A DNA stretch of 61,729 bases, taken from Paenarthrobacter sp. PH39-S1 (lineage in GTDB: Bacteria; Actinomycetota; Actinomycetes; Actinomycetales; Micrococcaceae). Where the stretch lies: NCBI RefSeq assembly GCF_030063245.1, contig NZ_JASISR010000026.1, positions 1 to 61,729 on the forward strand, written 5' to 3'. Made by a program: the position numbers and the translations under genes. The notes under the pieces were generated by a model. That model saw only the letters and a program-made list of their open reading frames with translations. It ran no database searches and was not told where the DNA came from. Positions 10,979 through 54,318 of the stretch are shown one piece after another (within the stretch, counting starts at the first letter, position 1; every line of letters starts with the position of its first letter).

Positions 10979-11896
10979 ATGTCCAATGTCAGTTTGCGGC
11001 AACTTGAATACCTTATTGCGGCTGCGGAGACCGGCAGCGTAACGGCCGCCGCCGCACGGCTCTATCTTTCCCAGTCGGCCGTTTCCACGGCGCTGTCCGA
11101 TCTTGAAGAGGCCCTGGACGTGCAGGTTTTCATCCGGCATCCGCGCGGGCTGGCGCTAACCAACGTTGGGCAGCAGGTCCTCACCGATGCCCGCAGGCTG
11201 GTGGCCGGTATGGAGGATCTGCGCAATTCCGCCCGGGAGTCCAGTGAATCCCTTTCGGGAAAACTGGCAGTGGGCTGCTACAGCACACTGGCACCGATCC
11301 TGCTGCCGCGCGTCATCGCGGATTTCACAAAAAACCATCCGGACGTGGACCTGAACTTCGTCGAGGGATCGCACACCCGATTGGAGGAACAGTTGCGGGA
11401 CGGTTCGCTGGACTTGGCCATCCTGTACGAATACGACTTCGGCCAGCGCCACATTGCGAAAGATCTGGCGCTCAATGTGGTGGTCTCCACGCCGCCCTAC
11501 GTCATCCTGCCCGAGCGCCACGAACTGGCCAGCCGGGAGAACCTCGCCCTGGCGGATCTTGCGCCGCAACCTCTGATCCTCTTTGACCTTCCGCCGGGCG
11601 GGGACTACTTCCTGTCATTCTTCGGCGCAGAGAATCTGACTCCTAACGTCAGGTTCCGCACCACCAGCTTTGAAATGGTCCGAGCACTCGTCGCCCGCGG
11701 CCTGGGCTACTCGATCCTGAGCCAGCGGACCAACATCAACATGAGCTACGAGGGCCTGGCATTCGTCACCAGACCACTGACCGGTACATTTCCCGGCCTG
11801 AATGCAGGCGCCGTTCACCTGAACGGAGTCCGGCTGACGCGGCGCGCGGTCGCGTTCATCGACCAATGCCGGACCTCGTTGGGAACTCGGGCCTAG
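10979..11896 (+). CDS. LysR-family transcriptional regulator
   Basis: The 305-residue protein has the LysR winged HTH at residues 5-62 (LRQLEYLIAAAETGSVTAAA, then LSQSAVSTALSDLE) and a periplasmic-binding-like effector domain (LAVGCYSTLAPILLPRVI). It is divergent from the M20/ABC operon and precedes the monooxygenase operon in the same direction, so it probably controls both. A T-N11-A box stands before the downstream operon. The effector is likely the transported compound or an intermediate. Confidence 0.95.
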   Translation: MSNVSLRQLEYLIAAAETGSVTAAAARLYLSQSAVSTALSDLEEALDVQVFIRHPRGLALTNVGQQVLTDARRLVAGMEDLRNSARESSESLSGKLAVGCYSTLAPILLPRVIADFTKNHPDVDLNFVEGSHTRLEEQLRDGSLDLAILYEYDFGQRHIAKDLALNVVVSTPPYVILPERHELASRENLALADLAPQPLILFDLPPGGDYFLSFFGAENLTPNVRFRTTSFEMVRALVARGLGYSILSQRTNINMSYEGLAFVTRPLTGTFPGLNAGAVHLNGVRLTRRAVAFIDQCRTSLGTRA

Positions 11897-11951
11897 CAGG
11901 ATCCGGCCGGATTTTCCACGTCGATCGCCCGGGCAGGCTCTCCGGTGGCGG

Positions 11952-11966
11952 GGTTTCTATAAAACC
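11952..11966. promoter_or_regulatory. Palindrome GGTTT-N5-AAACC upstream of the monooxygenase operon
   Basis: A 5+5 interrupted palindrome with a CTATA centre, 95 bases before the flavin reductase start. It could be a second regulator half-site or a weak hairpin after the LysR gene. Confidence 0.4.
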
Positions 11967-11986
11967 GATGGCAATGATCAGAAAGT

Positions 11987-12001
11987 TATGTTGGACACAT
12001 A
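11987..12001. promoter_or_regulatory. LysR-type operator TATGT-N5-ACATA
   Basis: TATGT (11987-11991) and ACATA (11997-12001) form the T-N11-A interrupted palindrome typical of LysR-family binding sites. It lies 60 bases before the flavin reductase start and downstream of the lysR gene, fitting an activator site for the monooxygenase operon. Confidence 0.6.
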
Positions 12002-12060
12002 CAGTTTCTACTCCGAATACTGATTGGAGATGAATCTGCAACCGGATAAGGAGAAAACGA

Positions 12061-12665
12061 TGACTGTTTCAGCCGACAGCACCTCCACTGCCGCATCAAC
12101 GCCCACGCGGCCCTACGATCCATTCATTGCTGCGATGGGCGCCGTGGCCACCGGTGTTACCGTGGTGGCCACCGAGGGCGAAACGGGTCGTTTTGCCCAG
12201 ACGGTGAGCGCCATGTGCTCCGTCTCCGCTGACCCCCGCCTGGTGCTGGTCTGCATCAACAGCCGCAGCCCGATCAACGAGGCCATCCACGCCAACGGCG
12301 CCTTCACCGTCAATGTGCTGGGCAGCCAGCATGACCACGTTGCTGACACCTTTGCCGGACGCCCCTGGCCCGGCAAGGGTCCCTGGGACTTCAGCTGCGG
12401 CCAGTGGGAGCCGGCCCCGTCCGGATCGCCGCGCATCGCCGACGCCGTGGCCAGCTTTGACTGCAGCATCCATCAAATGGTTGAGGCCGGCACGCACAGG
12501 ATCTACATAGGCCTTGTCACCAACGTTGAAACGCACGGCGGGGACCCGCTGATCTACAGCGCCCAAACCTATGCCAAACCCCTCCCCGTCCCGCCGTCCG
12601 TCTTCGACGATTACCCCGGCTCGGGCCCCACCTACCGCAAGAACACCAAGGAGAATGCCACATGA
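12061..12665 (+). CDS. Flavin reductase of a two-component monooxygenase (HpaC-like)
   Basis: This roughly 200-residue protein of the flavin_reduct family supplies reduced flavin to a partner oxygenase. Visible features are FIAAMGAVATGVTVVATEG, the TVSAMCSVSADP flavin-binding stretch, and INEAIHANGAFTVNVL. ATG 12061 has AAGGAG upstream, better than an earlier ATG at 12024. The stop overlaps the monooxygenase start. It is first in the operon after a LysR-type operator. Confidence 0.92.
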
Positions 12666-40220: not shown

Positions 40221-40781
40221 ATGGCCACACTGATCTACTCCGGTATCACGTCGCTCGACGGCTACGTAGCGGACAAGGACGGCAGCTTCGACTGGAGTGT
40301 GCCGGACGAGGAGGTGCACAGGTTCGTCAACGACCTCGAGCGCCAGGTCGGCACCTATCTCTACGGGCGGCGGATGTACGAGGTGATGGCCGCCTGGGAG
40401 ACCATATACGCCCGGACGGACCAGTCTCCCTTTGTCCGGGACTTTGCAGAGATATGGCAGGCGGCCGACAAGATCGTGTACTCCGGGACGCTGAAGGCGG
40501 CCTCCAGCGCCAGGACGCGGATTGAGCGGGATTTCGACGTCGGGGCGGTCCGGAAGATGAAGACGACGGCGGCACACGACATGACTGTGGGCGGCACTGA
40601 CCTCGCCGCCCATGCGATCAAGGCAGGCCTGGTTGATGAGTGCCGCATGTTTGTTACGCCCGTCGTCGTTGGAGGGGGCAAACACTTCCTTCCCGATGGA
40701 GTCCACCTGAAGCTCGAACTGCTGGAGGAGCGGCGTTTCCGCAACGGGATTGTATATCTTCGCTATCGCATCAGGACATGA
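40221..40781 (+). CDS. Dihydrofolate reductase-like (RibD C-terminal) protein
   Basis: A 186-residue protein of the RibD_C/YwjB-YyaP type: IYSGITSLDGYVADKDGSFD at the N terminus, GTYLYGRRMYEVM, and DMTVGGTDLAAHAIKAGLVD followed by EC...FVTPVVVGGGKHFL. These proteins share the DHFR fold but usually lack folate activity; most are uncharacterised NADPH reductases. ATG 40221 lies within a weak ribosome site. No partner gene is nearby. Confidence 0.9.
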   Translation: MATLIYSGITSLDGYVADKDGSFDWSVPDEEVHRFVNDLERQVGTYLYGRRMYEVMAAWETIYARTDQSPFVRDFAEIWQAADKIVYSGTLKAASSARTRIERDFDVGAVRKMKTTAAHDMTVGGTDLAAHAIKAGLVDECRMFVTPVVVGGGKHFLPDGVHLKLELLEERRFRNGIVYLRYRIRT

Positions 40782-41035: not shown

Positions 41036-41953
41036 GTGATTGAGAAAGAAACAACATTCTTCAGTGAAGGCAGCCGCCTCAAGGCCACGCTCTATTACCC
41101 TGACAATTCAACGAGCGGACCCCAGCCGGCCCTAATTATTAACTCCGGCTACCAGGGATTCAATGAGTTCTACCCGAAGATGTTCGCGCGCCAGATGACG
41201 GAGCGCGGATACATCTGCCTTGGATTCGACTACCGTGGGATGGCAGACAGCGAGGGTGACAAGGGCACGGTTCTTATCGAAGAGCAGGTCGCGGATATCC
41301 GCAATGCGGTCACTTTCATGCAGTCACAGAAAGATGTTGATGATCAACAGCTGGGACTCATCGGATGGGGAATGGGCGCGGCCAATGTGGTCCTCGCCGC
41401 TGAAAAGGGAAGAAACGTTGCTGCCGTGGCTTCGCTGAATGGATTTTACGATGGTGAACGGTGGCTGAAGTCGATTCATTCCTACGATGAATGGACCCGG
41501 ATTCTCGACGAGGTGCACGAAGACCGCGTGCGGCGGGTCCTTGAAGGAGAATCGAAACTGGCAGACACCTTCGCCCACTACCCGCTTGATCCTGCAACGG
41601 ACGATTACGTGCAAAAAGAACTCGCTCAAGTGTACGGATTTGGACACCCGACCCGGCTGCAGTTCACAGAATCGATTCTCGATTTGAAGGTGGGAAAAGT
41701 GGTCAGGAACCTGGCGCCGACGCCGCTGTTCATCGGACATGGGTCGCGCAATTCTCTGCACCCTTACGACGAGGCCTTGGCCTTGTACGCGTCGGCGTCG
41801 TCCCCGAAAACGCTGTACACCGTCGACGGCCGGCACAATGATTTTATGTACAGTGACCACCCGGAATTTTTGATGCTGTGCGACCGGCTGAAGGAGTTTT
41901 TTGACCAGGCATTCCTGGTGAGCTCTTCCCCGTCCCGAAGCGTATCCGCCTAA
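41036..41953 (+). CDS. Alpha/beta-hydrolase fold protein with Gly at the nucleophile position
   Basis: A 305-residue alpha/beta-hydrolase (PALIINSGYQGFNEFYPKMF oxyanion region; GYICLGFDYRGMADSEG). The nucleophile elbow, normally GxSxG, reads GWGMG at about residues 112-116 (codon GGA), so the Ser is absent. The catalytic-Asp region (TPLFIGHGSRN) and His (DGRHNDF) seem kept. It could be a non-hydrolytic member (cofactor-free lyase, dioxygenase or binding protein), or inactivated. Lower GC than neighbours at its 5' end suggests separate origin. It precedes the IclR gene on the same strand. Confidence 0.88.
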   Translation: MIEKETTFFSEGSRLKATLYYPDNSTSGPQPALIINSGYQGFNEFYPKMFARQMTERGYICLGFDYRGMADSEGDKGTVLIEEQVADIRNAVTFMQSQKDVDDQQLGLIGWGMGAANVVLAAEKGRNVAAVASLNGFYDGERWLKSIHSYDEWTRILDEVHEDRVRRVLEGESKLADTFAHYPLDPATDDYVQKELAQVYGFGHPTRLQFTESILDLKVGKVVRNLAPTPLFIGHGSRNSLHPYDEALALYASASSPKTLYTVDGRHNDFMYSDHPEFLMLCDRLKEFFDQAFLVSSSPSRSVSA

Positions 41954-42007
41954 GGGTCCGAGACAACTGTTTCCTCACCTGGCCCACGGTGCAAGTGGGC
42001 GGGGTCC

Positions 42008-42065
42008 GTCTTCAGAAGTGAAGACTTCTCGGAAACCGTTGCGGTTTATGCAACGGCTTGTTGCA
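42008..42065. promoter_or_regulatory. Two nests of overlapping palindromes upstream of the iclR gene
   Basis: First nest: GTCTTCA (42008-42014) pairs with TGAAGAC (42019-42025), and AGAAGT (42014-42019) pairs with ACTTCT (42024-42029). Second nest: CCGTTGC (42036-42042) pairs with GCAACGG (42050-42056), and TGCAAC (42049-42054) pairs with GTTGCA (42060-42065), giving three alternating GTTGC/GCAAC half-sites. Such arrays fit IclR-family operators, and mutually exclusive hairpins are also possible. Confidence 0.6.
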
Positions 42066-42102
42066 TACGTCACATCCGATGCTTAGTATTTGGGACATGG
42101 TC

Positions 42103-42867
42103 ATGGAGCAGAAACACACTGGAGCGGCGAGGGTTATGGCAATCCTTGACGTACTCAGTTCTGCGGACGTCGCAGAGTTTCCGGAGGGTATGACCGTTTC
42201 TGACGTTTCGCGGTCTATGGGGCGTGAAAAATCGGTCGTGTCGCGCCAGCTTAAAAGTCTGCTGGAGAGCGGCCTGGTTGCCCGCGATGCTGCAGGTCGA
42301 TATGAGTTGAGCTGGCGGCTGTTTGCTCTGGCTTTGCGCGCCGGTGATCAGCGTTTGATGAAAACCGCGGGGCCGGTGATGTTGCGCTTGACCGAGATGG
42401 TTCGGGAGCGGACGTATCTGACGGTGCTCAGCGATGGCGAGGTATTGACGGTTCACTCGGAGAGCTCGAGGCGCTCCATTGAAGCGGTGGGCTGGGTGGG
42501 ACGCACAGTGCCGGTGAACCGCAGTTCAAGTGGGATGGCGCTGCTGTTGGACCATGAAGATGAACATATTGTCGATATCGTCCGGCGGGGCGACGACGGC
42601 ATCACGGCCCGGGAGGCCCGGGAGTTCCTTGCCCGGGTGCAGGACGCCCGCCGTCGGGGCTACACGGTGGCAAACCGGATATTTGACCCGGAACTGTTGG
42701 GCATCGGCGCACCGGTGCGCGATTATTCTGGACGAATTACAGCTGCCGTGAACATTTCGGGCCCTGCACTCCGTATTGAACCTCATATACACGTGTTCGC
42801 GGGTCACCTGCTTTCGGCCGTCCAGGCTTTTCAACAACCACTTTCGGCGGTTCGCTCTTTGGCGTAG
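42103..42867 (+). CDS. IclR-family transcriptional regulator
   Basis: A protein of about 254 residues with an N-terminal winged HTH (MTVSDVSRSMGREKSVVSRQ then LKSLLESGLVARDA) and the IclR effector domain (SSSGMALLLDHEDE; GYTVANRIFDPELLGIGAPV; AAVNISGP). ATG 42103 is preferred because the HTH begins 20 residues later; ATGs at 42079 and 42097 are in frame. It sits upstream of, and in the same direction as, the 43026-51017 operon, which it likely controls through the palindromes before it. Confidence 0.92.
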   Translation: MEQKHTGAARVMAILDVLSSADVAEFPEGMTVSDVSRSMGREKSVVSRQLKSLLESGLVARDAAGRYELSWRLFALALRAGDQRLMKTAGPVMLRLTEMVRERTYLTVLSDGEVLTVHSESSRRSIEAVGWVGRTVPVNRSSSGMALLLDHEDEHIVDIVRRGDDGITAREAREFLARVQDARRRGYTVANRIFDPELLGIGAPVRDYSGRITAAVNISGPALRIEPHIHVFAGHLLSAVQAFQQPLSAVRSLA

Positions 42868-42953
42868 TGGCCACTCCATGTTCCGGAAACCTGGATCTGC
42901 TGTCCTCGAACTTTCCGTTTATCCATCTAGTCAAGAAACTAACAGGAGAAATC

Positions 42954-43013
42954 ATGCAACGCTTCGCCCTGCCCTTTTTCAAGCCCGCGTTCGCGGCCCT
43001 TCCCACAGTCTGA
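42954..43013 (+). CDS. 19-codon leader ORF before the ABC operon
   Basis: ATG 42954 follows AGGAG by seven bases and reads MQRFALPFFKPAFAALPTV before a TGA. The next gene's GTG (43026) starts 12 bases later and has no ribosome site of its own, so translation of this mini-ORF may feed it. The peptide is hydrophobic with three Pro, like the start of a permease. It could be a leader for attenuation or a remnant of a lost first gene. Confidence 0.5.
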   Translation: MQRFALPFFKPAFAALPTV

Positions 43014-43025
43014 TCCGGTATCGCC

Positions 43026-43670
43026 GTGTTGCTGTCGTATTTGGCCGATAACGCTACTCGTTTGCTGTTCCTGGCGGAGCAGCACGCTGAACTGGTTCTC
43101 ATCAGTGTCGCAATTTCGGCGGTCATAGGAATAGGGCTTGCCCTGGTGACGGAGTCGATGCCCGGTCTGCGGCAGGCGCTGTTGTCCGTGACCGGCACGC
43201 TCCTGACCATCCCATCCTTCGCCCTGTTTGCCCTCATGATCCCGCTGCTGGGCTTGGGCGTCGCTCCGACCGTGGTGGCTCTGGCGATCTATGGGATCTT
43301 CCCGATCCTGCGCAATACAGTGACCGGAATTGAGGGCGTGGACCCAGCGGTCATCGACGCCGCCCGGGGCCTGGGCATGGGCCGGGGAAGGCGGATGCGC
43401 ACGGTCGTGATCCCGCTGGCATGGCCGGTGATACTGAACGGTATCCGGACGGCCACGATCATGCTTGTTGCGACCGCCGCGATCGGCGCCGTCGTCCGCG
43501 GGCCCGGACTGGGAGAGCTGATCTTCCGCGGCCTGGCCCGCATCGGGGGAGCGAACGCCCTGAATGAGGCTTTGTCGGGAGTGATCGGGGTTGTGCTGGT
43601 GGCACTGGTCCTTGATCTCCTTTTTATCGCGATCGCGAAAATCACCACTCTGCGAGGATTAAATGTCTGA
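43026..43670 (+). CDS. Osmoprotectant-type ABC transporter permease (OpuCB/ProW-like)
   Basis: A 214-residue permease with about six membrane segments, of the glycine betaine/choline/carnitine group: FALFALMIPLLGLGVAPTVV, ILRNTVTGIEGVDPAVIDAA, RGLGMGRGRRM (EAA-type loop) and VATAAIGAVVRGPGLGELIF. GTG 43026 is the first in-frame start. Its stop overlaps the ATPase start. With the other permease it forms the membrane channel for substrate captured by the lipoprotein. Confidence 0.92.
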   Translation: MLLSYLADNATRLLFLAEQHAELVLISVAISAVIGIGLALVTESMPGLRQALLSVTGTLLTIPSFALFALMIPLLGLGVAPTVVALAIYGIFPILRNTVTGIEGVDPAVIDAARGLGMGRGRRMRTVVIPLAWPVILNGIRTATIMLVATAAIGAVVRGPGLGELIFRGLARIGGANALNEALSGVIGVVLVALVLDLLFIAIAKITTLRGLNV

Positions 43671-44667
43671 AAAACCAGAATGCAGCCCGGACACCATGAT
43701 TTTCCTGGACGGCGTGTCGAAACGCTACGCCGATCAGCCCAAGGCCGCGGTGACTGGCCTGTCGATGGAAATCAAGCGCGGTGAGTTCGTGGTTCTGGTC
43801 GGCCCCTCGGGGTGCGGGAAGACCACGACACTGCGGATGATCAACCGCCTGGTCGAACCCAGCGAGGGACGGATTTGGATCGACGGCAAGGACGTCACCC
43901 ACGTCGACGTGGATCGCCTGCGCCGCGGTATCGGTTACGTGATTCAGCAGATCGGGCTCCTGCCGCACCTGACGATCGCCGAGAACGTTGCTTTGGTGCC
44001 AAAATTATTGGGCATCCCGAAGGCCAAGAGGGTCCAACGGGCTGAGGAACTGCTGGAGCTGGTCGGTCTGGAACCGGCTACGTATGCCCGCCGTTACCCG
44101 CGTCAGCTCTCGGGTGGCCAGCAGCAGCGGGTCGGCGTGGCCCGGGCCCTGGCGGCGGATCCGCCGGTGATGCTGATGGACGAACCCTTCGGCGCGGTGG
44201 ACCCGATCGCCCGGGAAAAACTGCAGCTGGAATTTCTGCGCCTTCAGGAAAGGATCCGGAAGACGATCGTTTTTGTCACCCACGATATTGACGAGGCTCT
44301 GCGCCTGGGCGACCGGATCGCGATCTTCGGCGCAGGGTCCAGGCTGGCCCAGTTCGACACGCCTTTGGAGATACTGAGCAATCCGGCCGACGATTTCGTC
44401 CGGAATTTTGTCGGCGCCGGCGCGGCCGTTCGCAGGCTCTCCCTGCTGAAGGTGTCGGACGTCATCGATTTGTCCACCCCGGATGCCGGCGGCCTGCTCA
44501 GGACCGTGCAGGTGGGTGCCGGGGAAACTGTGCACCGGGCCTTGGAACAGGTCCTGGCCGCGAGGGCGGAAGGAGTCTGCGTGAAGCTCGAAACAGGTGC
44601 TACCCGGTTCATTGACCTGCAGGGGCTGCTGACCGCCGCTGCCGAACCAACGAGGGCGCTCTCATGA
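43663..44667 (+). CDS. Osmoprotectant-type ABC transporter ATPase (OpuCA/ProV-like)
   Basis: A 334-residue ATPase with Walker A GPSGCGKTTT, Q-loop VIQQIGLLPH, signature LSGGQQQRVGVARALA, Walker B MLMDEPFGAVDP and H-loop VTHDIDEALRLGD. The C-terminal 70 residues resemble a CBS-like regulatory region, as in betaine transporters, which may sense ionic strength. Overlaps both neighbours by four to eight bases. Confidence 0.95.
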   Translation: MSEKPECSPDTMIFLDGVSKRYADQPKAAVTGLSMEIKRGEFVVLVGPSGCGKTTTLRMINRLVEPSEGRIWIDGKDVTHVDVDRLRRGIGYVIQQIGLLPHLTIAENVALVPKLLGIPKAKRVQRAEELLELVGLEPATYARRYPRQLSGGQQQRVGVARALAADPPVMLMDEPFGAVDPIAREKLQLEFLRLQERIRKTIVFVTHDIDEALRLGDRIAIFGAGSRLAQFDTPLEILSNPADDFVRNFVGAGAAVRRLSLLKVSDVIDLSTPDAGGLLRTVQVGAGETVHRALEQVLAARAEGVCVKLETGATRFIDLQGLLTAAAEPTRALS

Positions 44668-45422
44668 GCTCGACCGTGATGGAACGGGTGACGCTGCCGG
44701 GAAGCCGGCGCTCAACGCTCTGGGTGATGCCGGCGATCGTGATTGCCCTCGTGGTCGGAGTTTCCCTGTATGTCAGCTCCATTCCCCTGGATTCCAGTGA
44801 AACCCGCAGCATGGCCCCCGGGGTGGTCCTTGCCTCGCTGTGGCAGCACGTGCAGCTGGTGGCCGTCTCAACCGTGCTGACCATCGTCATCGGTGTCCCG
44901 GCCGGCGTGGCCCTGACCCGGCCCCGTGCCCGCAGAGCCGGCGGGGCTGTTTTGGCTGCAGCGAATGCAGGCCAAGCCGTCCCCTCGATCGGTGTGCTGG
45001 TCCTGCTGGCCATGCTGTTCGGGGTCGGTTTTTGGATGGCGGTGATCGCCTTAGTCGTCTATGCCCTGTTGCCGGTCCTGCGCAACACGATGGTCGGCAT
45101 CCGGCAGGTCAACCCGGCGCTCATCGACGCCGGGCGGGGGATGGGCATGAGTGCCCGGGAGGTCCTCTACACCATCGAGCTCCCCCTCGCAGTCCCCGTG
45201 ATGCTAGCCGGGATCCGGGTCGCGCTGATCCTGAACGTGGGGGTGGCTACCCTGGCCGCTTTCACCAACGCGGGTGGCTTGGGAACCATCATTTCCTCGG
45301 GGATTTCCCTGAACCGGATGCCCGTACTCATTCTTGGCAGCGCGCTGACCATCGCTCTGGCCCTGACCGTGGACTGGCTGGCCGGCATCGCCGAGCGCCT
45401 GCTTCGTCCGCGCGGAATCTGA
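44664..45422 (+). CDS. Second osmoprotectant-type ABC permease
   Basis: A 252-residue permease related to the one at 43026 (VPSIGVLVLLAMLFGVG, LLPVLRNTMVGIRQVNPALI, GRGMGMSAREVLYTIELPLA, GVATLAAFTNAGGLGTII). About six membrane segments after an N-terminal anchor. ATGA overlap with the ATPase gene. Two permease genes flanking one ATPase gene is the usual OpuC-type arrangement. Confidence 0.93.
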   Translation: MSSTVMERVTLPGSRRSTLWVMPAIVIALVVGVSLYVSSIPLDSSETRSMAPGVVLASLWQHVQLVAVSTVLTIVIGVPAGVALTRPRARRAGGAVLAAANAGQAVPSIGVLVLLAMLFGVGFWMAVIALVVYALLPVLRNTMVGIRQVNPALIDAGRGMGMSAREVLYTIELPLAVPVMLAGIRVALILNVGVATLAAFTNAGGLGTIISSGISLNRMPVLILGSALTIALALTVDWLAGIAERLLRPRGI

Positions 45423-45450
45423 AAAACAACCAATCCAAAAGGAGACACAG

Positions 45451-46404
45451 ATGCGTAAAAGTTTGCTTGCTGCCGTCGGGTTACTCAGCGTGGTGTTGAC
45501 CAGCGGCTGCGCCCTGAACAGCAGCGGCCCGGGGCAGGCCGCGGGCCCGGCCCAAGACGGCCCGCTTAAGGGTGCCACCTTGAACGTGGGCTCGAAGGAA
45601 TTCACCGAGCAGCTCCTGCTGTGTGAAATCACTGCTGAACGGCTCGAATCCCAGGGAGCGACGGTGAAGCGCACCTGTGGAATGAGCGGCTCCAACGCTG
45701 TTCGGGGTGCCCTCACCAGCGGAGCCATCGACATGTACTGGGAATACACCGGCACCGGTTGGATCACTGACCTGCAGCAGAAGGAAACGATCACTGACCC
45801 GACAGTGATGTACCAGAAGCTCAGCGTTATGGACAAGGCCAAGAACAACGTCGTCTGGCTGCCGCCGGCCGCCGCCAACAACACCTACGCCGTGGCGGTC
45901 AAGACCGAGACCGCAAAGAAACTGGGTGTCTCCACGCTCTCGGACTATGCAAAACTGGCTCAAACCGACCCCGGGAACGCCACCTTCTGCGGCGCCTCGG
46001 AATTCTTTGGCCGCGACGACGGCTGGCCCGGGCTGGAGAAGGCCTACGGCATGAGCCTGCCCCAGGACAAGGTTGCCACCCTGGCCGAAGGACCGATCTA
46101 CAACGCGATAGCGAAGAACAACCCCTGCAACTTCGGTGAAGTTTTTGCCACCGACGGGCGCATCGCTTCCCTGGGGCTGACCGTGCTTGAGGACGACAAG
46201 CATTTCTTCCCGCCCTACAATCTGTCCCTGAACGTGGGCAGCGCCGTGCTGGATAAGAACCCGCAGATCCAAACCACGATGGAGCCGGTCAGCAAGCTGC
46301 TGACTACCAACGAACTGCAGAAGCTCAACGCGCAGATCGACGTTGACGGCAAAACTCCTGAGGAGGTGGCCAGCGGGTGGTTGACGGCCAACAAACTGAA
46401 GTAA
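45451..46404 (+). CDS. Osmoprotectant-type solute-binding lipoprotein (OpuCC-like)
   Basis: A 317-residue extracellular lipoprotein (signal peptide ending in LTSGC) with a QAT-type binding domain: NVGSKEFTEQLLLCEITAER, SGAIDMYWEYTGTGWITDL, LAEGPIYNAIAKNNPCNFGE. Aromatic residues (WEYTGTGW) could form the cage that binds a quaternary amine. AAGGAG lies before ATG 45451. The enzymes encoded directly downstream suggest the ligand is a nutrient rather than only an osmoprotectant. Confidence 0.92.
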   Translation: MRKSLLAAVGLLSVVLTSGCALNSSGPGQAAGPAQDGPLKGATLNVGSKEFTEQLLLCEITAERLESQGATVKRTCGMSGSNAVRGALTSGAIDMYWEYTGTGWITDLQQKETITDPTVMYQKLSVMDKAKNNVVWLPPAAANNTYAVAVKTETAKKLGVSTLSDYAKLAQTDPGNATFCGASEFFGRDDGWPGLEKAYGMSLPQDKVATLAEGPIYNAIAKNNPCNFGEVFATDGRIASLGLTVLEDDKHFFPPYNLSLNVGSAVLDKNPQIQTTMEPVSKLLTTNELQKLNAQIDVDGKTPEEVASGWLTANKLK

Positions 46405-47270
46405 CCGGCCGGGAGCGGCCCCCCGTCCTCACCGTGGGGCTGCTCCAGACCGCCCCCGTCTTCGGCGAAGTCGACTCGAACATCGCCAGGATCATCGATC
46501 TGCGTGACCGGCTCGGAAACGTCGACCTGGTACTGACCCCGGAGCTGGCTCTGAACGGGTACGGGTTCGGCCCCGGCGCCGACCTTCAAGCGTTGACCGC
46601 GGACGACCCGAGGCTGGACTCGCTGGTCTCCGGGCCCGCCGCCATCGGCATCGGATTCGCCGAAAATGCAGGCAGAGGGCTACCCCGCAACACCTACATG
46701 CTCGCCGATTCCAGCGCAAGGACCAGGGACTTCCAGCACAAAATCCACCCGGTCTCCTATTCCCCTTGGAACGAGCACCTCAGCTTTGAGGCCGGCATCG
46801 TCCTGGAGACCGCCGTGATCCGTGGCGCCCGGTGCGCCACGGTGATCTGCAACGACATGTGGCACCCTGTCGTACCCTGGCTCGCCGCCAGGGCCGGGGC
46901 CGAGGTACTCATCGTGCCCGTGGCCAGCATCGACGGCACCAACCCCGACCAGATACAACGCACCTGGCAGGTGATTCTAGAGCACACGGCCCTGCTGCTC
47001 CAGTGTTACGTCGTGTTCATCAACCGATGCGGAACGGACGGCGGCGCCAGATTCTGGGGCGGTTCCCGGATTCTTGGCCCAGACGGGAACACCCTCGCCA
47101 ACGCCGGGGACTCAGAAACCATTCTGGAGGCCACACTGGACCTCGCGGCCCTGCGGAAGCTTCGCGCCGACACGCCAATACTGGCAGAAGCCCGCAACAG
47201 CTTCGTGATCGACACTCTGACTCGTGCCGGTCTCGCTCCTGAACCTCGGGGAGGTGGACGCCATGTTTGA
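46377..47270 (+). CDS. Nitrilase-superfamily carbon-nitrogen hydrolase
   Basis: A 297-residue enzyme with the full Glu-Lys-Cys triad: LVLTPELALNGYGF (Glu), FQHKIHPVSY (Lys) and ATVICNDMWHPVVPW (Cys). Members hydrolyse amides, N-carbamoyl amines or nitriles in the cytoplasm. GTG 46377 lies inside the lipoprotein gene, with AGGAGG nine bases before it; the overlap of 28 bases implies coupling to the transporter. It probably cuts the imported compound, releasing ammonia or an amine. Confidence 0.9.
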   Translation: MVDGQQTEVTGRERPPVLTVGLLQTAPVFGEVDSNIARIIDLRDRLGNVDLVLTPELALNGYGFGPGADLQALTADDPRLDSLVSGPAAIGIGFAENAGRGLPRNTYMLADSSARTRDFQHKIHPVSYSPWNEHLSFEAGIVLETAVIRGARCATVICNDMWHPVVPWLAARAGAEVLIVPVASIDGTNPDQIQRTWQVILEHTALLLQCYVVFINRCGTDGGARFWGGSRILGPDGNTLANAGDSETILEATLDLAALRKLRADTPILAEARNSFVIDTLTRAGLAPEPRGGGRHV

Positions 47271-48096
47271 CGTGCACGTGCACGCCGCTCCCGATGTGGT
47301 GGACCGCATCGGCTACGACGATGAAATCTGCTCCCGTTACGCTGACGCGGGATTCAGCGGGTTTGTCCTTAAAGCCCACCACGAGTCCACAGTAGGGCGC
47401 GCCGCCGCGCTGGCCCGCTCGTCCGGGCTGGACGTGGTGGGGGGCGTGGCGCTGAACAGCGCCGCGGGAGGCATCAATCCCGCGGCGGTTCTCGCGGCTC
47501 TTTCCAGTGGTGGCAGGATGATCTGGTTCCCCACCGCCGATGCACACACCCAGGAGTCCGCGCACCTGCCGCGGCTGAACGACCTGGATCCCCGCCTTGA
47601 CCGGCACACGCTGGCCGTTCCCCCGGTACTCGTTCCTCGAGACAACCAGATGGCCGACATCGCCCTCGTTCTGGATTTAATTGCCGACCACGACGCAGTG
47701 CTCTGCACCGGGCATTTGAGCAGACGCGAATGCCGGTGGCTTTTCGACCAGGCCAGGAGCCGTGGCATCTCCCGGTTCCTGCTCACCCATCCCTCCTATA
47801 CGGTTCCTGGGATGAGCCCGGCCGAGATCGGTGAACTCGCCGATGTGGGAGCCTACGTGGAAATTACCGCCTACCAGCTGTGGCATCAGCCAGGAATGAC
47901 CGAGACCGGTCTCGCGGCGGTAGCACGAGCCGCCGGGGACCGGCTGGTCCTTGCCTCGGACGCCGGCCAACCGGACAGCCCTCAGCCGCCCCAGGCATTG
48001 GAACAATTGGTCAAGGCCCTCGGCGGTCAGGGCCTTGACCACGGTCGGTTGCAGTCCGCGGCCGATGAGACCCCCAGAAAGCTTGTACTGAAATGA
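47263..48096 (+). CDS. DUF6282-type amidohydrolase-fold protein
   Basis: A 277-residue TIM-barrel hydrolase: the metal motif FDVHVHAAPDVVDRIGYDDE at the N terminus, FVLKAHHESTVGRA, ALLCTGHLS-like VLCTGHLSRRE, and ASDAGQP at the C terminus (likely metal Asp). The DUF6282 family is uncharacterised. ATG 47263 has GGAGG just upstream and is preferred to the longer frame from 47224. It overlaps the nitrilase stop and the next ATG. Confidence 0.85.
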   Translation: MFDVHVHAAPDVVDRIGYDDEICSRYADAGFSGFVLKAHHESTVGRAAALARSSGLDVVGGVALNSAAGGINPAAVLAALSSGGRMIWFPTADAHTQESAHLPRLNDLDPRLDRHTLAVPPVLVPRDNQMADIALVLDLIADHDAVLCTGHLSRRECRWLFDQARSRGISRFLLTHPSYTVPGMSPAEIGELADVGAYVEITAYQLWHQPGMTETGLAAVARAAGDRLVLASDAGQPDSPQPPQALEQLVKALGGQGLDHGRLQSAADETPRKLVLK

Positions 48097-51017
48097 ATTC
48101 TGACATCACGCCGACATGGGCCGGAGAAATCCGTGCCAGCATCGATGGGGATTTCCGTACTGACGCCGGCACCAGAGCCGCGTTTGCCAGCGACGCCTCC
48201 AATCACCGGGTGCTGCCCCAAGGTGTTGCCTTTCCACGCCATGCCGGGGACGTCGCCTTCATAGTTCAGGTTTGCCGGGAGGAGGACATCCCTGTCACCG
48301 CGCGCGGCACTGGAACTAATATTGCTGGCAACGCCATCGGCCCCGGAGTAGTCGTTGACTTCACCCGGCACATGAACAACATCTTGTCCGTGGACCCCGA
48401 AGCCCGTACCGCCGTCGTCGAACCCGGGGTCATCCTGGACGCACTCCGGGCACGAGCAGAGCATGACGGGCTCACCTTTGGCGTTGATCCGTCCACGCAC
48501 GACCGGTGCACCTTGGGCGGGATGATCGGCACCAATGCCTGCGGATCCCACTCCGTGGCATGGGGAACGACCGCGGACAACGTCCATGCTCTGGACCTTG
48601 TCTTGGCCGACGGCACCTCAGCCTCCGTCGCCGCCCACGGCCGCACCGGCCAGCCCATCCCGGATTCCGCTGCCGGGCTGGTGAAAGAACTCATCACCGT
48701 CCGAGACGCCTATCTGGGGGAAATCCGCACCGAACTGGGAACTTTCCGCCGGCAGATCTCCGGATACGGCCTGCAGTACCTCTTACCCGAAAACAACCTT
48801 GACGTTGCCAAGGCCCTCGTCGGCAGTGAAGGCAGCTGCTCTCTTATCACGGCCGCGACCGTGAAACTGGTCAGGTCCCCGCCCGTGCGCCAACTCGTCG
48901 TCGCCGGCTACCGGGACGAATATGCTGCCGCCGTCGCGGCTCCCGTCGTGGCCCAGGCAGGCCCGCTGACCGTGGAGGGCATGGAAGCCGAATTGGTCCG
49001 CGCCTCCGACTCCCGGCCGGGGCCCGGGCATCGCCCTACCCTGCCGGAGGGCAGCGCGTGGCTGCTGGTGGAGGTTGGCGGGTTCAATGACGACGACGCC
49101 CGCGCCAAGGCGGAGGAGATGCGCAAGGTGGCACGCGAGACGGGTGCCATCGACGTGCAGATCATCGTCGGCGCCGCGCAGCGCGGCTACTGGTCTATTC
49201 GCGAACGCGGCGCCGGGCTGGCTTCCCGTACCGCAGACGGTCAGGAAGCGTGGCCGGGGTGGGAGGACGCCGCCGTCCCTCCAGAAAACCTGGGTGCCTA
49301 CATCAGGGATTTCCGGTCCCTAATGGCGAGGTTCAACGTCCACGGCATGCTCTACGGACACTTCGGTGAAGGCTGCCTGCACATCCGCATCGATCACAAC
49401 CTCTTCACGGCCGAAGGGGTCCGCCACTTCCGGCACTTCCAGGAAGCCGCAGCAGAGGTGGTAACCTCCCATGGCGGGTCGCTCTCCGGTGAACACGGCG
49501 ACGGACGCGCCCGCTCGGAACTGCTCGACCGGCAGTACTCGCCCCGGATGCTGGCGGCTTTCGGCGCCTTCAAACATGCTTTCGACCCCGGAAAACTGCT
49601 CAATCCGGGCATCATCGTCGATCCCGCACCCTTGGACGCGGATCTGCGCAATTTGGGACAGCAAAGCGCCACGAAAGGTCTGGCCTTCGCCTATTCGGAT
49701 GACTCCGGTGACTTTACCAAGGCGGTGCGCCGCTGCGTCGGCGTCGGATCCTGCCGCACAACCTCAGGAGGCGGCATGTGTCCGTCCTTCCGCGCTACCC
49801 AGGACGAACGCCACAGCACCAGGGGCCGGTCCCGACTGCTCTCCGAGATGATGAACGGCTCCCTGCAGGAGGAAGGCTGGCGTTCCACCGAGGTCAAGGA
49901 TGCCCTTGATCTGTGCCTGTCCTGCAAGGCCTGCCATTCCGAGTGCCCGGTTTCGGTGGACATGGCCACCTACAAAGCCGAATTCCTATACCAGCATTAC
50001 AAGGGCCGGATCCGGCAGGCCTCGCACTACTCCATGGGGTGGCTGCCGCTTTGGCTCCGTCTCGCCTCGCCCATTGCGCCGCTGGTCAACCTTGCGATGA
50101 GCATCCCCGGCGTGGCCAAGTTGGCGAGGACGCTGGGCGGAATCGACCAGCAACGCGCCATCCCGAAACTGTACCGCCGCACCGGGCGCAGCGCCCTGCG
50201 CCGCACGCCCGCCCCCGGTACGGCCACCCCTGAGATGGCCACCCCTGATATGGCCGGGGCGCAGCCGGTCATCGTGTGGCTTGACTCCTTTACTGATTCA
50301 TTTTCGCCTGGGATCACGGGGCAGGCTGTCGCATTGCTGCGTGCCGCTGGTTACCAAACCCTTCCGCCGCCCCGGGGGTTGTGCTGCGGGCTGACGTGGG
50401 TCTCCACCGGGCAGCTCGACGCCGCCAAGACCATCATGCGGCGCACCGTGGCGGCTTTGGATGACGGGAGCGAAACCCCTATCATCGTTCTCGAGCCCAG
50501 CTGCGGGGCAGCGCTGCGCACCGACGTCGTCGAACTGCTCAACACGGACGCCGCGAAGCGTGTTTCGGCCCGCGTAAAGTCCCTGGCCGAGGCGCTCTCC
50601 GGCCGCGGTCTGGATTTCGATCACAGCATGCCCACCAAAGCGCTGGCGCAATTCCATTGCCACCAGCGCAGTACCTTCGGCACTGAAGCCGACACGGAAC
50701 TGCTGATCTCGGCGGGGCTTGACGTCACCTCGGTCACAGACGGCTGCTGCGGCCTCGCCGGTAACTTTGGTTTTGAAAAAGGACACTACGACGTCTCGGT
50801 CGCATGTGCAGAACAGTCCTTCATGCCGGCCTTGCAACAGGCCGGTCCGGAAGATGAGGTAGTTGCCGATGGCTTTTCCTGCCGCCTCCAAATCGAACAA
50901 ATAGGAAAAAGCCCGTCCAAGCACTTGGCCCAATTGCTCCACGAGCGGCTCATCCCGAACACCGAACGCAACTGCGAGCCTGATTCCGGCGACACCGCGG
51001 CGCTTAGCGAGCGCTGA
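48093..51017 (+). CDS. FAD-linked oxidoreductase fused to Fe-S/CCG domains (GlcD-GlcF type)
   Basis: A 974-residue fusion. Residues 1-530: FAD-PCMH and FAD-oxidase C domains (ARGTGTNIAGNAIG; STHDRCTLGGMIGTNACGSH; GSLSGEHGDGRARSELL), as in D-2-hydroxyacid dehydrogenases. Residues 545-620: two 4Fe-4S motifs (CVGVGSC...MCPSF and CLSCKACHSECP). Residues 700-930: cysteine-rich CCG repeats (GLCCGLTWVS, DGCCGLAGNFGFEKGHYDV). Such proteins oxidise D-lactate, D-2-hydroxyglutarate or glycolate and pass electrons to quinones. Last gene of the operon, overlapping the previous stop. Confidence 0.92.
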   Translation: MNSDITPTWAGEIRASIDGDFRTDAGTRAAFASDASNHRVLPQGVAFPRHAGDVAFIVQVCREEDIPVTARGTGTNIAGNAIGPGVVVDFTRHMNNILSVDPEARTAVVEPGVILDALRARAEHDGLTFGVDPSTHDRCTLGGMIGTNACGSHSVAWGTTADNVHALDLVLADGTSASVAAHGRTGQPIPDSAAGLVKELITVRDAYLGEIRTELGTFRRQISGYGLQYLLPENNLDVAKALVGSEGSCSLITAATVKLVRSPPVRQLVVAGYRDEYAAAVAAPVVAQAGPLTVEGMEAELVRASDSRPGPGHRPTLPEGSAWLLVEVGGFNDDDARAKAEEMRKVARETGAIDVQIIVGAAQRGYWSIRERGAGLASRTADGQEAWPGWEDAAVPPENLGAYIRDFRSLMARFNVHGMLYGHFGEGCLHIRIDHNLFTAEGVRHFRHFQEAAAEVVTSHGGSLSGEHGDGRARSELLDRQYSPRMLAAFGAFKHAFDPGKLLNPGIIVDPAPLDADLRNLGQQSATKGLAFAYSDDSGDFTKAVRRCVGVGSCRTTSGGGMCPSFRATQDERHSTRGRSRLLSEMMNGSLQEEGWRSTEVKDALDLCLSCKACHSECPVSVDMATYKAEFLYQHYKGRIRQASHYSMGWLPLWLRLASPIAPLVNLAMSIPGVAKLARTLGGIDQQRAIPKLYRRTGRSALRRTPAPGTATPEMATPDMAGAQPVIVWLDSFTDSFSPGITGQAVALLRAAGYQTLPPPRGLCCGLTWVSTGQLDAAKTIMRRTVAALDDGSETPIIVLEPSCGAALRTDVVELLNTDAAKRVSARVKSLAEALSGRGLDFDHSMPTKALAQFHCHQRSTFGTEADTELLISAGLDVTSVTDGCCGLAGNFGFEKGHYDVSVACAEQSFMPALQQAGPEDEVVADGFSCRLQIEQIGKSPSKHLAQLLHERLIPNTERNCEPDSGDTAALSER

Positions 51018-51202: not shown

Positions 51203-51898
51203 TCAGGGGAGCTTGCTGAAGGTTTCGGCTTGCGGTTTGGTTCCCTGCACGATGATTTGGTCGTCACCGTCGAGGATGGTCTGGGCCGTCGTGTGTTCCC
51301 AAGCATTTCCGGAGCGCTTTACTGCGACGATGGTGATGCCGTATTTGTCTCGGAGTTGGAGCACTCCGAGGGGTCGGTCAGTCGCGACCGCCGGGGGGCG
51401 GGTTCGGATCATGACGAAGTTGTCTTCGAACTCCACGTAGTCCAGGATCGATCCCAGGACCAGATGGGCGACCCGGCGGCCCATGTCGTGTTCGGGCCGG
51501 ATGACGTGTTCAACCCCGAGCTGGCCCAGGATTTCCGCGTGCGGTTCGCTGATGGCTTTGGCCCAGATCTGCGGTCTCTTAAAGGTCAGAAGCCGTGACG
51601 TGGTGAGGATGCTGGCTTCGATGTCTGAACCGATGCCCACGACGGCGCGGTCAAATTCGTGGACGGAGAGCTGGCGCAGCACTTCCTCTTTCGTGGAATC
51701 CGCGCGCACCACATGCGTCAGGCGCCCATTGAACGACTGAACGGTGTCCTCGTCGGCGTCGATCCCCAAGACTTCCGTGCCCTGGGCTTCCAATTCCAGC
51801 GCGAGGGCACCCCCGAAGCGGCCCAATCCGAGGACCGCGACGGAGTTGGCCTGCGCGATCCGGTCGCCGGTCCGGGTGGAGAAAATGTTCTTAGCCAA
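51203..51898 (-). CDS. ktrA: Potassium channel gating subunit (KtrA/TrkA-like, RCK domain)
   Basis: A cytoplasmic 231-residue RCK protein that gates the K+ channel: SVAVLGLGRFGGALALELEA (Rossmann nucleotide site), GIDADEDTVQSFNGRLTHVV, ADSTKEEVLRQLSV, and a TrkA_C domain (TIVAVKRSGNAWEHTTAQTI). TTG 51898 follows AAGGAAAGG and overlaps the ktrB stop by eight bases; ATG 51925 is an alternative. Paired with the channel gene upstream. Confidence 0.92.
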   Translation of the reverse strand: MAKNIFSTRTGDRIAQANSVAVLGLGRFGGALALELEAQGTEVLGIDADEDTVQSFNGRLTHVVRADSTKEEVLRQLSVHEFDRAVVGIGSDIEASILTTSRLLTFKRPQIWAKAISEPHAEILGQLGVEHVIRPEHDMGRRVAHLVLGSILDYVEFEDNFVMIRTRPPAVATDRPLGVLQLRDKYGITIVAVKRSGNAWEHTTAQTILDGDDQIIVQGTKPQAETFSKLP

Positions 51899-53303
51899 TG
51901 AGTGGCCTTTCCTTGGGGAATTCATAGAGTATGGGACGACGCCGCAGGGCCAGAGCTGATCCGAGGGTGACGGGCCCGAGGCGTCCAACGAGCATCAGGA
52001 TGATCAGGATCACCTGCCCAGCCGGCGGGAGACCGGCGGTGATGCCGGTGGACAGCCCCACGGTGGCGAACGCGGAGACGACTTCAAAGAGAATCTTCTC
52101 CTGCCCGAAGCCGGAGATGAGCATCAGGATCATGGTCGACACGACGACCAGGGCGATCGCGAGCAGGACAACAGTGATGGCCTGCCGGTGAACAGCGCGG
52201 GAAAGGCGCTTGCCGAAGATGTTGACGGCGGTTCCGCTACGCACCTCGGTGGAAAGGATGAAAAACAGTACGGAAAAGGTCGTTATTTTCAGCCCTCCAG
52301 CGGTGCCGGCGGGGCCGCCCCCGATGAACATCAGGATATCCATGCCCATCCAGGACACGGGGTGCATCTGGCCTATATCGATGCTGTTGAAGCCCGCTGT
52401 CCGGGTTATTGCTGACTGGAAGAATCCGGCGAGAATCCGTTCGCCCGGCTGCAGGTGTCCCAAAGTGGCAGGGTTCATCCATTCCACGGCCACAATGAAT
52501 GCCGTTCCTGCGATCAGGAGCACCACCGACCCGCTCAGGACGAGTTTGGTGTTCATGCTCCACAGCACCGGACGGCGGTACTGGCGGCGCAATTCAAAGA
52601 GCACCGGGAATCCGAGTCCACCGATGATGACCGCGACGGCAATGGGAAGGCATATCCAGGGGTCGGCCACGAAGCCCGTCAGATTATCTGAAAACAGGGC
52701 GAATCCGGCGTTGTTGAATGAGGAAACTGAATGGAATACGCCCAGCCACAGTGCTTTGCCGGGCCCGTAACCGTATCCGGTCATGAAACGCATCGTCAGT
52801 ACCAGTGCCAGGACGGCCTCCGTGCCGAGGCTGATTTTCAGGACCCCCAACAGGACAAGGCGCACATCTCCGATGCCCGTGCTTTTGGTCTCCGCAGCGG
52901 CCGATAGCCTGGACCGCAGGCCCAGCCTTCGGGCCACCAGAACCCCGAGCACGGTGCCGAACGACATGACACCAAAGCCGCCGATTTGAATCAAAACCAT
53001 AATGATTGTCTGGCCGAACGGAGTCCAGAATACCGGCGTGTCCACAACGATCAGCCCTGTAACACAAACGGAGGAAGTAGCGGTGAACAATGATTCCAGC
53101 AGGGAGGCCCCGCCCGGGCCCTGCTTCGCCACCGGCAGCATCAGTAAAAACGTTCCGGCAGCGATCGCGCCCACAAAGCCTGCCACAATCACCTGGGCCG
53201 GATGTTTCGGGGCAAGCCAACGCAGAAAGGTTCGGAAGCCGAGGAGCAATCCCTTCCACGCAGAGGAGAAATTCCCCATGAGAGCAGACAAGCCTTCCTT
53301 CAT
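51891..53303 (-). CDS. ktrB: Potassium uptake channel KtrB (TrkH family)
   Basis: About 470 residues with four pore repeats. The loops carry the K+-selective Gly: TATSSVCVTGLIVVD, HSVSSFNNAGFALFSD, AITRTAGFNSIDIG, SAFATVGLSTGITAG. Na+-dependent K+ uptake when bound to KtrA. ATG 53303 or ATG 53279 may be the start; the region before the first helix is short. Convergent with nothing on its left; the two genes form a standard ktrBA pair. Confidence 0.92.
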   Translation of the reverse strand: MKEGLSALMGNFSSAWKGLLLGFRTFLRWLAPKHPAQVIVAGFVGAIAAGTFLLMLPVAKQGPGGASLLESLFTATSSVCVTGLIVVDTPVFWTPFGQTIIMVLIQIGGFGVMSFGTVLGVLVARRLGLRSRLSAAAETKSTGIGDVRLVLLGVLKISLGTEAVLALVLTMRFMTGYGYGPGKALWLGVFHSVSSFNNAGFALFSDNLTGFVADPWICLPIAVAVIIGGLGFPVLFELRRQYRRPVLWSMNTKLVLSGSVVLLIAGTAFIVAVEWMNPATLGHLQPGERILAGFFQSAITRTAGFNSIDIGQMHPVSWMGMDILMFIGGGPAGTAGGLKITTFSVLFFILSTEVRSGTAVNIFGKRLSRAVHRQAITVVLLAIALVVVSTMILMLISGFGQEKILFEVVSAFATVGLSTGITAGLPPAGQVILIILMLVGRLGPVTLGSALALRRRPILYEFPKERPLIG

Positions 53304-54318
53304 CAATGGGTGGGGCGGCCAAAACAGGCAACTTCGACGCACATATCCGACACGTTATCACCGGCGCAAGACCGGCGTGCGTAGCGGGCCGCCGGCAAAG
53401 GTCCAGGCCCGACGGCGCCGCGCACTTGCCGGCCTGACCGGTCCCGTTTTGCTACTTTCGAGGCATGATCTCGATGTTCAGCGGCGCAGAAATCAATGAG
53501 CCAATCAACTGCTTCGCCCGCAGCACAAGCCGTGCCACTTCCGGCTATGAACTCAAAGTCGCTCCCTGCTACTCGATCGCTAGGCCATGTGCCACAGAAA
53601 TGAGGCTAACCGGAGCCGCCTGCAGCTTCTCAAACGAGCCCCCACCTTGTCGAGGTAGTCCCCATATTCGAGGCAACCGCCCGTCGTGGGGATGTCGCGT
53701 AAAAGGATCTCACTCACTGCGGCGGTACCGGTCTAAGCAGCATAACGACGGGAACCGGCGGTGTCCCGAAGAAGGAGAAGCGCCGCGACCCTTACTTTGG
53801 ATTGCCTTCCATCGCGTTCTTCCGCGCATTGGAATACACACGATATATATATCTCTCGTTACCGCAGGCAAAATCGACCGACTGTCCACTTTTCCAGGAA
53901 GGCATTAACTGCCGTCGCCAGCTGCGCCCGCCATTGCTGCCGGGACGCAGCTGGGTGTCGAGGTTCCGTTTCCTCCCCAGGAAAGGGAGGCAATTTCGAA
54001 CGTCTCTAGAACGAGCGGACGAACCCGGCAAGCTCCACGACTGTGAGCTCATCGAAGGCATCCGGCCCGATTTCGAGCTGGCCCGCCAGACCCTGCTTTG
54101 CGTGGTTATCCTAGTGCCTTTGTCCTCGGCTTACGTTGCTTACTAGTCAGTCAATTGCTTCGTTCGTAGGCTGTGAATAGGCTGAGTTCTGCAGCATCCG
54201 TGACGACCGAAAAATTCCGCCTCTTTTGTTGTGCGGTTGTCCTCGCGGGCGTAGGCCGTTCTTATGACCGTTGGGACGCCGGCAAAAGGTTGGCGTCAAC
54301 CATAAGGAGGAACACGGA
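53304..54318. other. About 1 kb without a recognisable gene
   Basis: Open frames (plus 53465-53908, plus 53802-54146) lack known motifs and have weak codon bias. The segment 53820-53880 and 54150-54250 are AT-richer than the surroundings. It may hold decayed genes and the promoter of the YCII gene. Confidence 0.4.

Follow-up and report, generated by a model that had tools for sequence, protein, structure and literature searches.

Catabolic operons that combine an importer with enzymes are a familiar type, and several described systems resemble parts of the one analyzed here, which occupies positions 41036–51017 of a 61,729-nucleotide (nt) stretch of DNA from Paenarthrobacter sp. PH39-S1 (contig NZ_JASISR010000026.1, positions 1–61,729; this whole stretch is referred to as the window). 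Importers of the OpuC/OpuB and OsmF types (for glycine betaine, choline and carnitine and, in the case of EgtU, ergothioneine) share with this locus two permeases, an ATPase and an OpuAC lipoprotein with four aromatic residues; here, however, the importer stands in an enzyme operon beside an IclR-family regulator, with no Pfam CBS domain in the window-type ATPases tested and with Ala142 in the lipoproteins of the window clade. The Rut pyrimidine pathway is a ring-opening catabolic operon and includes an alpha/beta-fold protein, RutD, with Ala in place of the nucleophile, but the present cluster has no RutA-type monooxygenase and its alpha/beta-hydrolase-fold protein (ABH) has also lost the acid residue. 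In the lower nicotinate pathway of Aspergillus nidulans (HxnM imidase, HxnN amidase), 3-hydroxypiperidine-2,6-dione is converted to alpha-hydroxyglutaramate and then to alpha-hydroxyglutarate (PMC9304392); this matches the ring opening and deamidation proposed below. HxnM is akin to PgdA-like cyclic imidases and HxnN to FAAH1, both unrelated to the proteins here, and the alpha-hydroxyglutaramate is the (S) form (PMC9304392); the present cluster has no ring hydroxylases.

Comparison of gene content across genomes shows that the cluster is a conserved unit, and it is quite probably a dedicated catabolic operon ending in the oxidation of a D-2-hydroxyacid. Nine protein genes and one short open reading frame (ORF) lie on the + strand between 41036 and 51017 (ORF table, Pfam and NCBIfam scans). 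An initial annotation, made from the letters alone, had listed an IclR regulator, a leader ORF, an OpuC-type importer, a nitrilase-family gene, a DUF6282 gene and a 974-residue protein with flavin adenine dinucleotide (FAD) and iron-sulfur (Fe-S) domains, and all are present where it placed them (ORF table, Pfam, NCBIfam). Its entries are correct, but the list left out a palindrome and the ABH gene at 41036–41953, which falls within the same interval and encodes the really odd component of the operon. The features are:

41036..41953, + strand: ABH, alpha/beta-hydrolase-fold protein, 305 residues (ORF table, Pfam, alignment, AlphaFold model)
42049..42065, no strand: palindrome TGCAAC-N5-GTTGCA, presumed IclR operator (pattern search, 12/12 syntenic loci)
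42084-42089: promoter-like TAGTAT, 3' of the palindrome (read from the sequence)
42097..42867, + strand: IclR-family regulator (Pfam HTH_IclR and IclR_C; start inferred from the palindrome position)
42954..43013, + strand: leader ORF of 19 codons with a ribosome-binding site, 5' of the first permease gene (counterparts in 12/12 loci)
43026..43670, + strand: OpuC-type permease 1 (Pfam BPD_transp_1)
43663..44667, + strand: OpuC-type ATPase, 334 residues (Pfam ABC_tran; NCBIfam proV subfamily)
44664..45422, + strand: OpuC-type permease 2 (Pfam BPD_transp_1)
45451..46404, + strand: OpuAC-type substrate-binding lipoprotein (Pfam OpuAC; lipobox read from the sequence)
46377..47270, + strand: NIT, nitrilase-superfamily protein with E56/K122/C158 (Pfam CN_hydrolase)
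47263..48096, + strand: DUF6282, predicted TIM-barrel metal hydrolase (Pfam; orthologue starts; model)
48093..51017, + strand: FAD/Fe-S D-2-hydroxyacid dehydrogenase, YdiJ-like, 974 residues (FAD_binding_4, FAD-oxidase_C, Fer4 and CCG)

From permease 1 onward, five of the six junctions overlap, by 4–28 nt when DUF6282 is read from ATG 47263, which bears out the earlier statement that the enzyme genes overlap each other and the transporter gene. The overlaps in the ORF table measure 8 nt for permease 1/ATPase, 4 nt for ATPase/permease 2, 28 nt for lipoprotein/NIT, 4 nt for DUF6282/dehydrogenase and, depending on the DUF6282 start, 8 or 47 nt for NIT/DUF6282.

Conservation and distribution of the gene set

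A scan of named genomes with DUF6282, which recovers close relatives only, gave 17 loci (identified by L numbers), across which DUF6282 is 73–78% identical with one exception at 55%. Gene presence was counted by tblastn; ORF calling missed or mis-framed genes (DUF6282 in L032, L040, L041 and L043). NIT, the lipoprotein, ABH and the IclR regulator each recur in 16 of the 17 loci, and the OpuC permeases and the FAD/Fe-S dehydrogenase in 15; the gaps involve L034, which is cut by a contig end, L042, which has another importer, and L031, which is without the dehydrogenase in its 20.8 kilobases (kb). The hosts, soil actinobacteria of several genera, are Arthrobacter, Paenarthrobacter, Paeniglutamicibacter, Streptomyces (8/17 named loci) and Micromonospora, together with Mycolicibacterium for L042. 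In the 11 other loci with gene order identical to that of the window, the genes are 57–94% identical and the dehydrogenase 44–79% (tblastn); L029, L030, L031 and L035 carry these genes in a different arrangement (importer 44–62%, NIT 34–44%, ABH 81–84%, DUF6282 74–75% identity). Flanking genes are barely shared between loci, clustering of called ORFs having returned few pairs, mainly between L030 and L035, plus one gene common to three loci, and no gene consistently conserved beyond the set was found by this clustering. Conservation of the gene set, on which the initial annotation had made its reading depend, is therefore what was found: the set recurs in Arthrobacter-group, Streptomyces and Micromonospora loci and the flanks hardly do. 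We rejected the view that the enzymes are chance neighbours of the importer, because the genes recur together across loci and the flanks do not. A molybdenum hydroxylase was also rejected as a member of the set, and the L030 neighbours of 888, 164 and 458 residues are a helicase, an acetyltransferase and an ordinary hydrolase (Pfam).

Few genes of the cluster are as well conserved as ABH. At E<=1e-50 it occurs in 12/395 genomes of the family and 5/396 of the phylum (window included in both), and the distribution of the cluster is patchy and probably horizontal. Beyond the close relatives, L090 of the same family has the full set (NIT 40%, DUF6282 59%, lipoprotein 55%, dehydrogenase 45% identity). 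L084 and L086, from other families of the phylum, carry DUF6282 (48%), IclR (37–40%), ABH (36–37%) and, of the importer (46–68%), both permeases, the ATPase and the lipoprotein, the last at least in part; at that point their short contigs end. In L085, ABH (38%), NIT (35%; 1141–2001, between the other two) and an FAD oxidase (29%) stand in a row on a contig that starts just before ABH. Other relatives depart further. In L064, DUF6282, ABH, IclR and the dehydrogenase are accompanied by a Pot-like importer, a zinc alcohol dehydrogenase and an aldehyde dehydrogenase, the last scoring best, below cut-off, with the NCBIfam model for betaine-aldehyde dehydrogenase; alongside ABH, DUF6282 and IclR, L042 encodes a Pot-like importer, an M20 peptidase, MmgE/PrpD and a luciferase-like protein; and a Priestia filamentosa plasmid (L049) has ABH (54%), DUF6282 (30%), a frame-changed GlcD-like gene, a GlcF-like gene and a protein with two nitrilase domains (24%). 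Judged by gene content, the steady core is ABH plus DUF6282, usually with IclR and a 2-hydroxyacid dehydrogenase, and the importer and amidase are common without being universal. Among the matches listed by our literature search, judged from titles and abstract openings, no work was recognisable as describing this cluster.

Properties of the encoded proteins and the regulatory region

Among named families, the dehydrogenase scores highest with YdiJ D-2-hydroxyglutarate dehydrogenase (443.2 bits), a long way short of the 1350 bits required of an equivalog. Its residues R370, H423, H430, E467 and H468 correspond to R386, H434, H441, E475 and H476 of human D-2-hydroxyglutarate dehydrogenase (D2HGDH), whose metal, substrate and distal-carboxylate residues are assigned in PMC7801405; the mapping was made by motif and through LDHD and LctD alignments, without the human sequence itself. 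All five metal and substrate residues are present in 20/22 dehydrogenase rows, YdiJ included, the exceptions being L030, where the stretch is wrong or masked, and L035, where R386 is masked. E. coli YdiJ thus shares the fused FAD and Fe-S architecture and the five catalytic residues, and it too has Arg in place of N443 (human numbering); it differs in overall sequence (27% identity), in that the window enzyme scores so far below the equivalog cut-off, and in having Ala where the window enzyme has Trp at the K401 position, a column that hinges for the window enzyme on the placing of a two-residue gap. With the residues of a D-2-hydroxyacid dehydrogenase kept, the end product named earlier, a 2-oxo acid from a 2-hydroxy acid, is reasonable. 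Versions of the enzyme are 42–53% identical between groups and 63–91% within them (L030 and L035 excluded), and in L043 the other genes are 69–94% identical to the window's though its dehydrogenase belongs to a different group. Since versions are swapped between otherwise similar clusters, the step seems to be required and the version does not.

NIT keeps the Glu-Lys-Cys triad in 18/19 rows, the remaining one (L030) being masked. Its named-family scores are led by the NAD+ synthase glutaminase domain, and deaminated glutathione amidase and YafV-type PRK10438, which we take to be an omega-amidase, are among the better ones after it; all are far below curated cut-offs. NIT resembles the omega-amidases of the nitrilase superfamily (deaminated glutathione amidase, PRK10438) in its triad and differs from them in these low scores. 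DUF6282 matches Pfam PF19799 at 190.3 bits against a gathering cut-off of 26.8. Among 18 such proteins, drawn from bacteria plus a single archaeon, H20, H52 and D246 never vary and H18, K50, H164 and H189 hardly ever do, and the model (mean predicted local distance difference test score, pLDDT, 80.7) finds its best Foldseek folds in phosphotriesterase-like lactonases and TatD proteins. The model fits a metal hydrolase of the TIM-barrel type and nothing more specific than that; our literature search found no paper naming DUF6282.

ABH fails the test that defines serine alpha/beta hydrolases, a triad of Ser/Cys/Asp nucleophile, acid and His. In the window protein the nucleophile Ser is replaced by Gly (GWGMG) and the triad Asp by Asn (N239), with His267 retained. 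Of the 27 aligned rows (at most 26 distinct, given the probable same-strain pairs L093/L035, L092/L031, L094/L029 and L089/L032), 25 have Gly and 2 have Ala at the nucleophile position, and all have Asn at the acid position and retain the His. Ser, Asp and His are all present in three sister proteins on alphaproteobacterial plasmids (30–37% identity across the matched region). The fold itself is ordinary (AlphaFold pLDDT 72.6; nearest Protein Data Bank entry 7qjm, template modelling (TM) score ~0.8, 30% identity), and E. coli RutD, annotated as a putative aminoacrylate hydrolase, has Ala at its nucleophile position (GHALG). Our working view, drawn from these residue patterns, is that ABH would hydrolyse by general base or carry out a related lyase-type step.

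The importer has the components of an OpuC/ProV-type system: an OpuAC binding domain, two BPD_transp_1 permeases and a ProV-family ATPase, which scores 328.6 bits with the proV subfamily model of NCBIfam (cut-off 326.6). In such ATPases, CBS domains confer osmotic control; in the three window-type ATPases tested (window, L028 and L090) no Pfam CBS domain was found at E<=0.01, and sub-cutoff matches occur in L029 (21.2) and L086 (19.8; cut-off 24). Because these ATPases have no Pfam CBS domain and the enzymes travel with the importer, we lean towards a role in nutrition rather than osmoprotection, and the earlier proposal of use as a carbon and nitrogen source is supported to that extent. The lipoprotein aromatics F51, Y99, F232 and Y256, positions that presumably line the cation cage of the OpuBC/ProX literature, are kept in 21/21 rows (at most 19 distinct strains; the L037 lipoprotein is missing), as would suit a cationic ligand; at position 142 the window clade has Ala, and the L029 clade and the sensor protein compared have Phe. 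The earlier term "quaternary" for the compound keeps its likelihood from these aromatics and goes no further, because the importer is not invariant, being Pot-like in the related L064 and L042. Ergothioneine was considered as a ligand (PMC9732360).

Counts for the regulatory region refer to the 12 loci with intact ABH-IclR-permease order (window plus 11). Not counted were the rearranged loci L029, L030, L031 and L035, the truncated L034, L042 with its different importer, L090 and the more distant loci. Each of the 12 has GCAAC-N5-GTTGC between the ABH and iclR genes, 10 as an exact copy and 2 with one mismatch, and no exact copy was found elsewhere in these loci. Allowing one mismatch, the window holds two matches against 0.13 expected, the exact one at 42049–42065 and another within NIT. 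The host genome contains an extended form once, at this site, and 0/393 other genomes of the class sample have it; this argues for specificity of the site and not for its spread, the class search having found a cluster-type ABH match in only one other genome (G403). Before the permease gene, all 12 loci have a leader ORF with a ribosome-binding-like motif (only ATG codons with such a motif upstream were accepted), 19–48 codons long, with an M-x-H/R/C start in each and a variable remainder. In 8/12 loci, namely the Micromonospora locus and seven Streptomyces loci, the TGA stop of the leader and the start codon of the permease overlap as ATGA or GTGA, which suggests translational coupling. The best NCBIfam relatives of the regulator are PcaR/PcaU and then BhcR, a glyoxylate-linked regulator, all far below cut-off. 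Palindrome and leader ORF together offer handles for finding the inducer.

Proposed pathway and alternative readings

We propose that the IclR protein, bound to GCAAC-N5-GTTGC, would govern both its own promoter and the downstream operon as long as no inducer is present, and that the OpuC-type importer would take up a cationic compound, quaternary or N-heterocyclic. DUF6282, as a presumed metal-dependent TIM-barrel hydrolase, would open a ring or cleave an amide or ester. ABH, unable to form the usual covalent acyl-enzyme, would handle the product by general base (enamine, imine or carbamate hydrolysis), by analogy with E. coli RutD and its annotated aminoacrylate hydrolysis. NIT would then free ammonia from the omega-amide of a D-2-hydroxy-dicarboxylate (2-hydroxyglutaramate or malamate), and the FAD/Fe-S protein would oxidize that dicarboxylate to 2-oxoglutarate or oxaloacetate, passing electrons through its Fe-S part, probably to quinone. 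Taken as a whole, this IclR-controlled chain from an imported cation through such an omega-amide to a 2-oxo acid is tentative, and we think it somewhat likelier to fail in some part than to hold throughout. If the end product is a D-2-hydroxy-dicarboxylate, a catabolic source of such a metabolite would be revealed. In any case the locus is well enough delimited for functional assignments to be tested in three ill-defined groups at once: DUF6282, the alpha/beta-hydrolase subfamily without nucleophile and acid, and a seemingly nutritional OpuC-type importer.

Several observations weigh against the full chain, which is weakest in what the substrate is, in the guessed order of the hydrolyses and in taking the hydroxy acid for a dicarboxylate. 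At the distal-carboxylate positions T390, K401, Y432 and N443 of D2HGDH the window enzyme has Ala, Trp, Tyr and Arg, and E. coli YdiJ has Val, Ala, Phe and Arg; because both differ there, dicarboxylate specificity is not proven. The L085 oxidase, in a gap-free reading, has Thr at +4 and Lys at +15 after the Arg and Asn two residues after the second His, the spacings of T390, K401 and N443 (the T390 match holds by reading and is gapped in the alignment, and position 432 is Phe), but this is a single locus, and such oxidases may also stand near unrelated genes. The Foldseek matches of DUF6282 are generic (TMq 0.44–0.62 and 10–16% identity over about 40 best rows). Nor is the chain common to all relatives: NIT was not found in L064, where the alcohol and aldehyde dehydrogenases stand in its place; NIT, the OpuC importer and the dehydrogenase were not found in the 20.8 kb of L042; and L031, as noted, yielded no dehydrogenase.

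The same operon might instead end in a small or monocarboxylic 2-hydroxy acid (glycolate, D-lactate or D-glycerate), a betaine-like ester or amide being imported and glyoxylate or pyruvate produced. The dehydrogenase family does take in GlcD and D-lactate enzymes, BhcR is second among the regulator's (distant) NCBIfam relatives, the window enzyme has neither K401 nor N443 of D2HGDH, and Priestia has separate GlcD- and GlcF-like genes. Yet LDHD has a hydrophobic pocket and no glycolate activity (PMC10589216), and where that pocket is hydrophobic the window enzyme has Tyr421 and Arg432, like the Phe/Arg of YdiJ; the D2HGDH spacing of the L085 oxidase also speaks for a dicarboxylate. We give the small-acid alternative a real but minor chance. 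Catalytically inactive alpha/beta-fold receptors exist, and loss of nucleophile and acid in 27/27 rows would suit an ABH that is a sensor or scaffold and not an enzyme; the many polar residues invariant over 17 sequences (H267, D65, Y66, R67, H148 and E195 among them) suggest active chemistry, and RutD works in a catabolic operon with Ala at the nucleophile position, so that we find a non-enzymatic ABH unlikely. A bolder version of the catabolic proposal, in which DUF6282 and the nucleophile-less ABH would be a new two-enzyme module opening an imported cationic N-heterocycle to a D-2-hydroxy-dicarboxylic omega-amide, strikes us as improbable; if true, bacteria would have in this cluster a counterpart, assembled from unrelated families, to the lower part of the nicotinate pathway of fungi, and ABH would define an alpha/beta-fold subfamily hydrolysing without acyl-enzyme and without acid residue.

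Uptake and destruction of a toxic cationic compound, either natural product or xenobiotic, nutrition being of secondary importance, would agree with the patchy distribution of ABH and with the share of Streptomyces among the named loci, but an importer is a poor first step for self-protection and no further gene is conserved with the set; detoxification therefore appears highly improbable. An osmoprotectant importer with unrelated enzymes alongside has in its favour the OpuC-type sequence, the glycine-betaine family matches and the conserved cage positions. Against it, enzymes and importer stay together across genera in overlapping genes, in L090 even at 40–65% identity, and the three ATPases tested are without a Pfam CBS domain; conservation of the set largely refutes this reading, to which we attach next to no probability.

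Gene starts, neighbouring genes and further relatives

The iclR gene more likely starts at ATG 42097 or 42103 than at TTG 42058, because the latter codon falls within the conserved palindrome. For DUF6282, ATG 47263 is the most likely start, not GTG 47224 of the ORF, since most orthologue matches begin there. Rfam gave no match at the gathering threshold in the window. Directly upstream of the cluster, ORF 40221–40781 resembles, we assume, a RibD/dihydrofolate-reductase-type protein, and two ORFs at 51203–53342 on the – strand, convergent with the operon, presumably encode TrkA/TrkH-type potassium uptake proteins; no homologue of any of the three was found among the compared flanks of the loci. 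The flanking gene common to three loci lies near the dehydrogenase and looks by eye like a GntR/FadR-type regulator.

Plasmid contexts of DUF6282 (8 of 43 records) include ABH beside DUF6282 only in Priestia filamentosa, and were set aside as a substrate argument for being too diverse. The sodium:glutamate label of the Priestia symporter is the record's own, Pfam and NCBIfam scans gave it no family, and it was not used as support. On that plasmid (L049), DUF6282 and the Fe-S gene flank an unannotated FAD gene (10873–12170) with at least one frame change, and the nitrilase-family protein at 4665–6512, near ABH and DUF6282, has two CN_hydrolase stretches and, by eye, a lipoprotein-like N-terminus.

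L087 carries an ABH relative with GWGMA (9442–10317) beside a divergent Putative cyclase (PF04199) gene; DUF6282 was not seen on the stretch taken, which ends with the contig ~0.8 kb after ABH. A second alpha/beta-fold group, in L065, L067 and L068, also has Gly at the nucleophile position (GSGGTG) and keeps the Asp. In L067 its gene adjoins Amidohydro_1 and luciferase-like monooxygenase genes (Pfam), with similar-sized neighbours in L065 and L068, so the pairing of a nucleophile-less hydrolase fold with a presumed metal hydrolase occurs in two groups.

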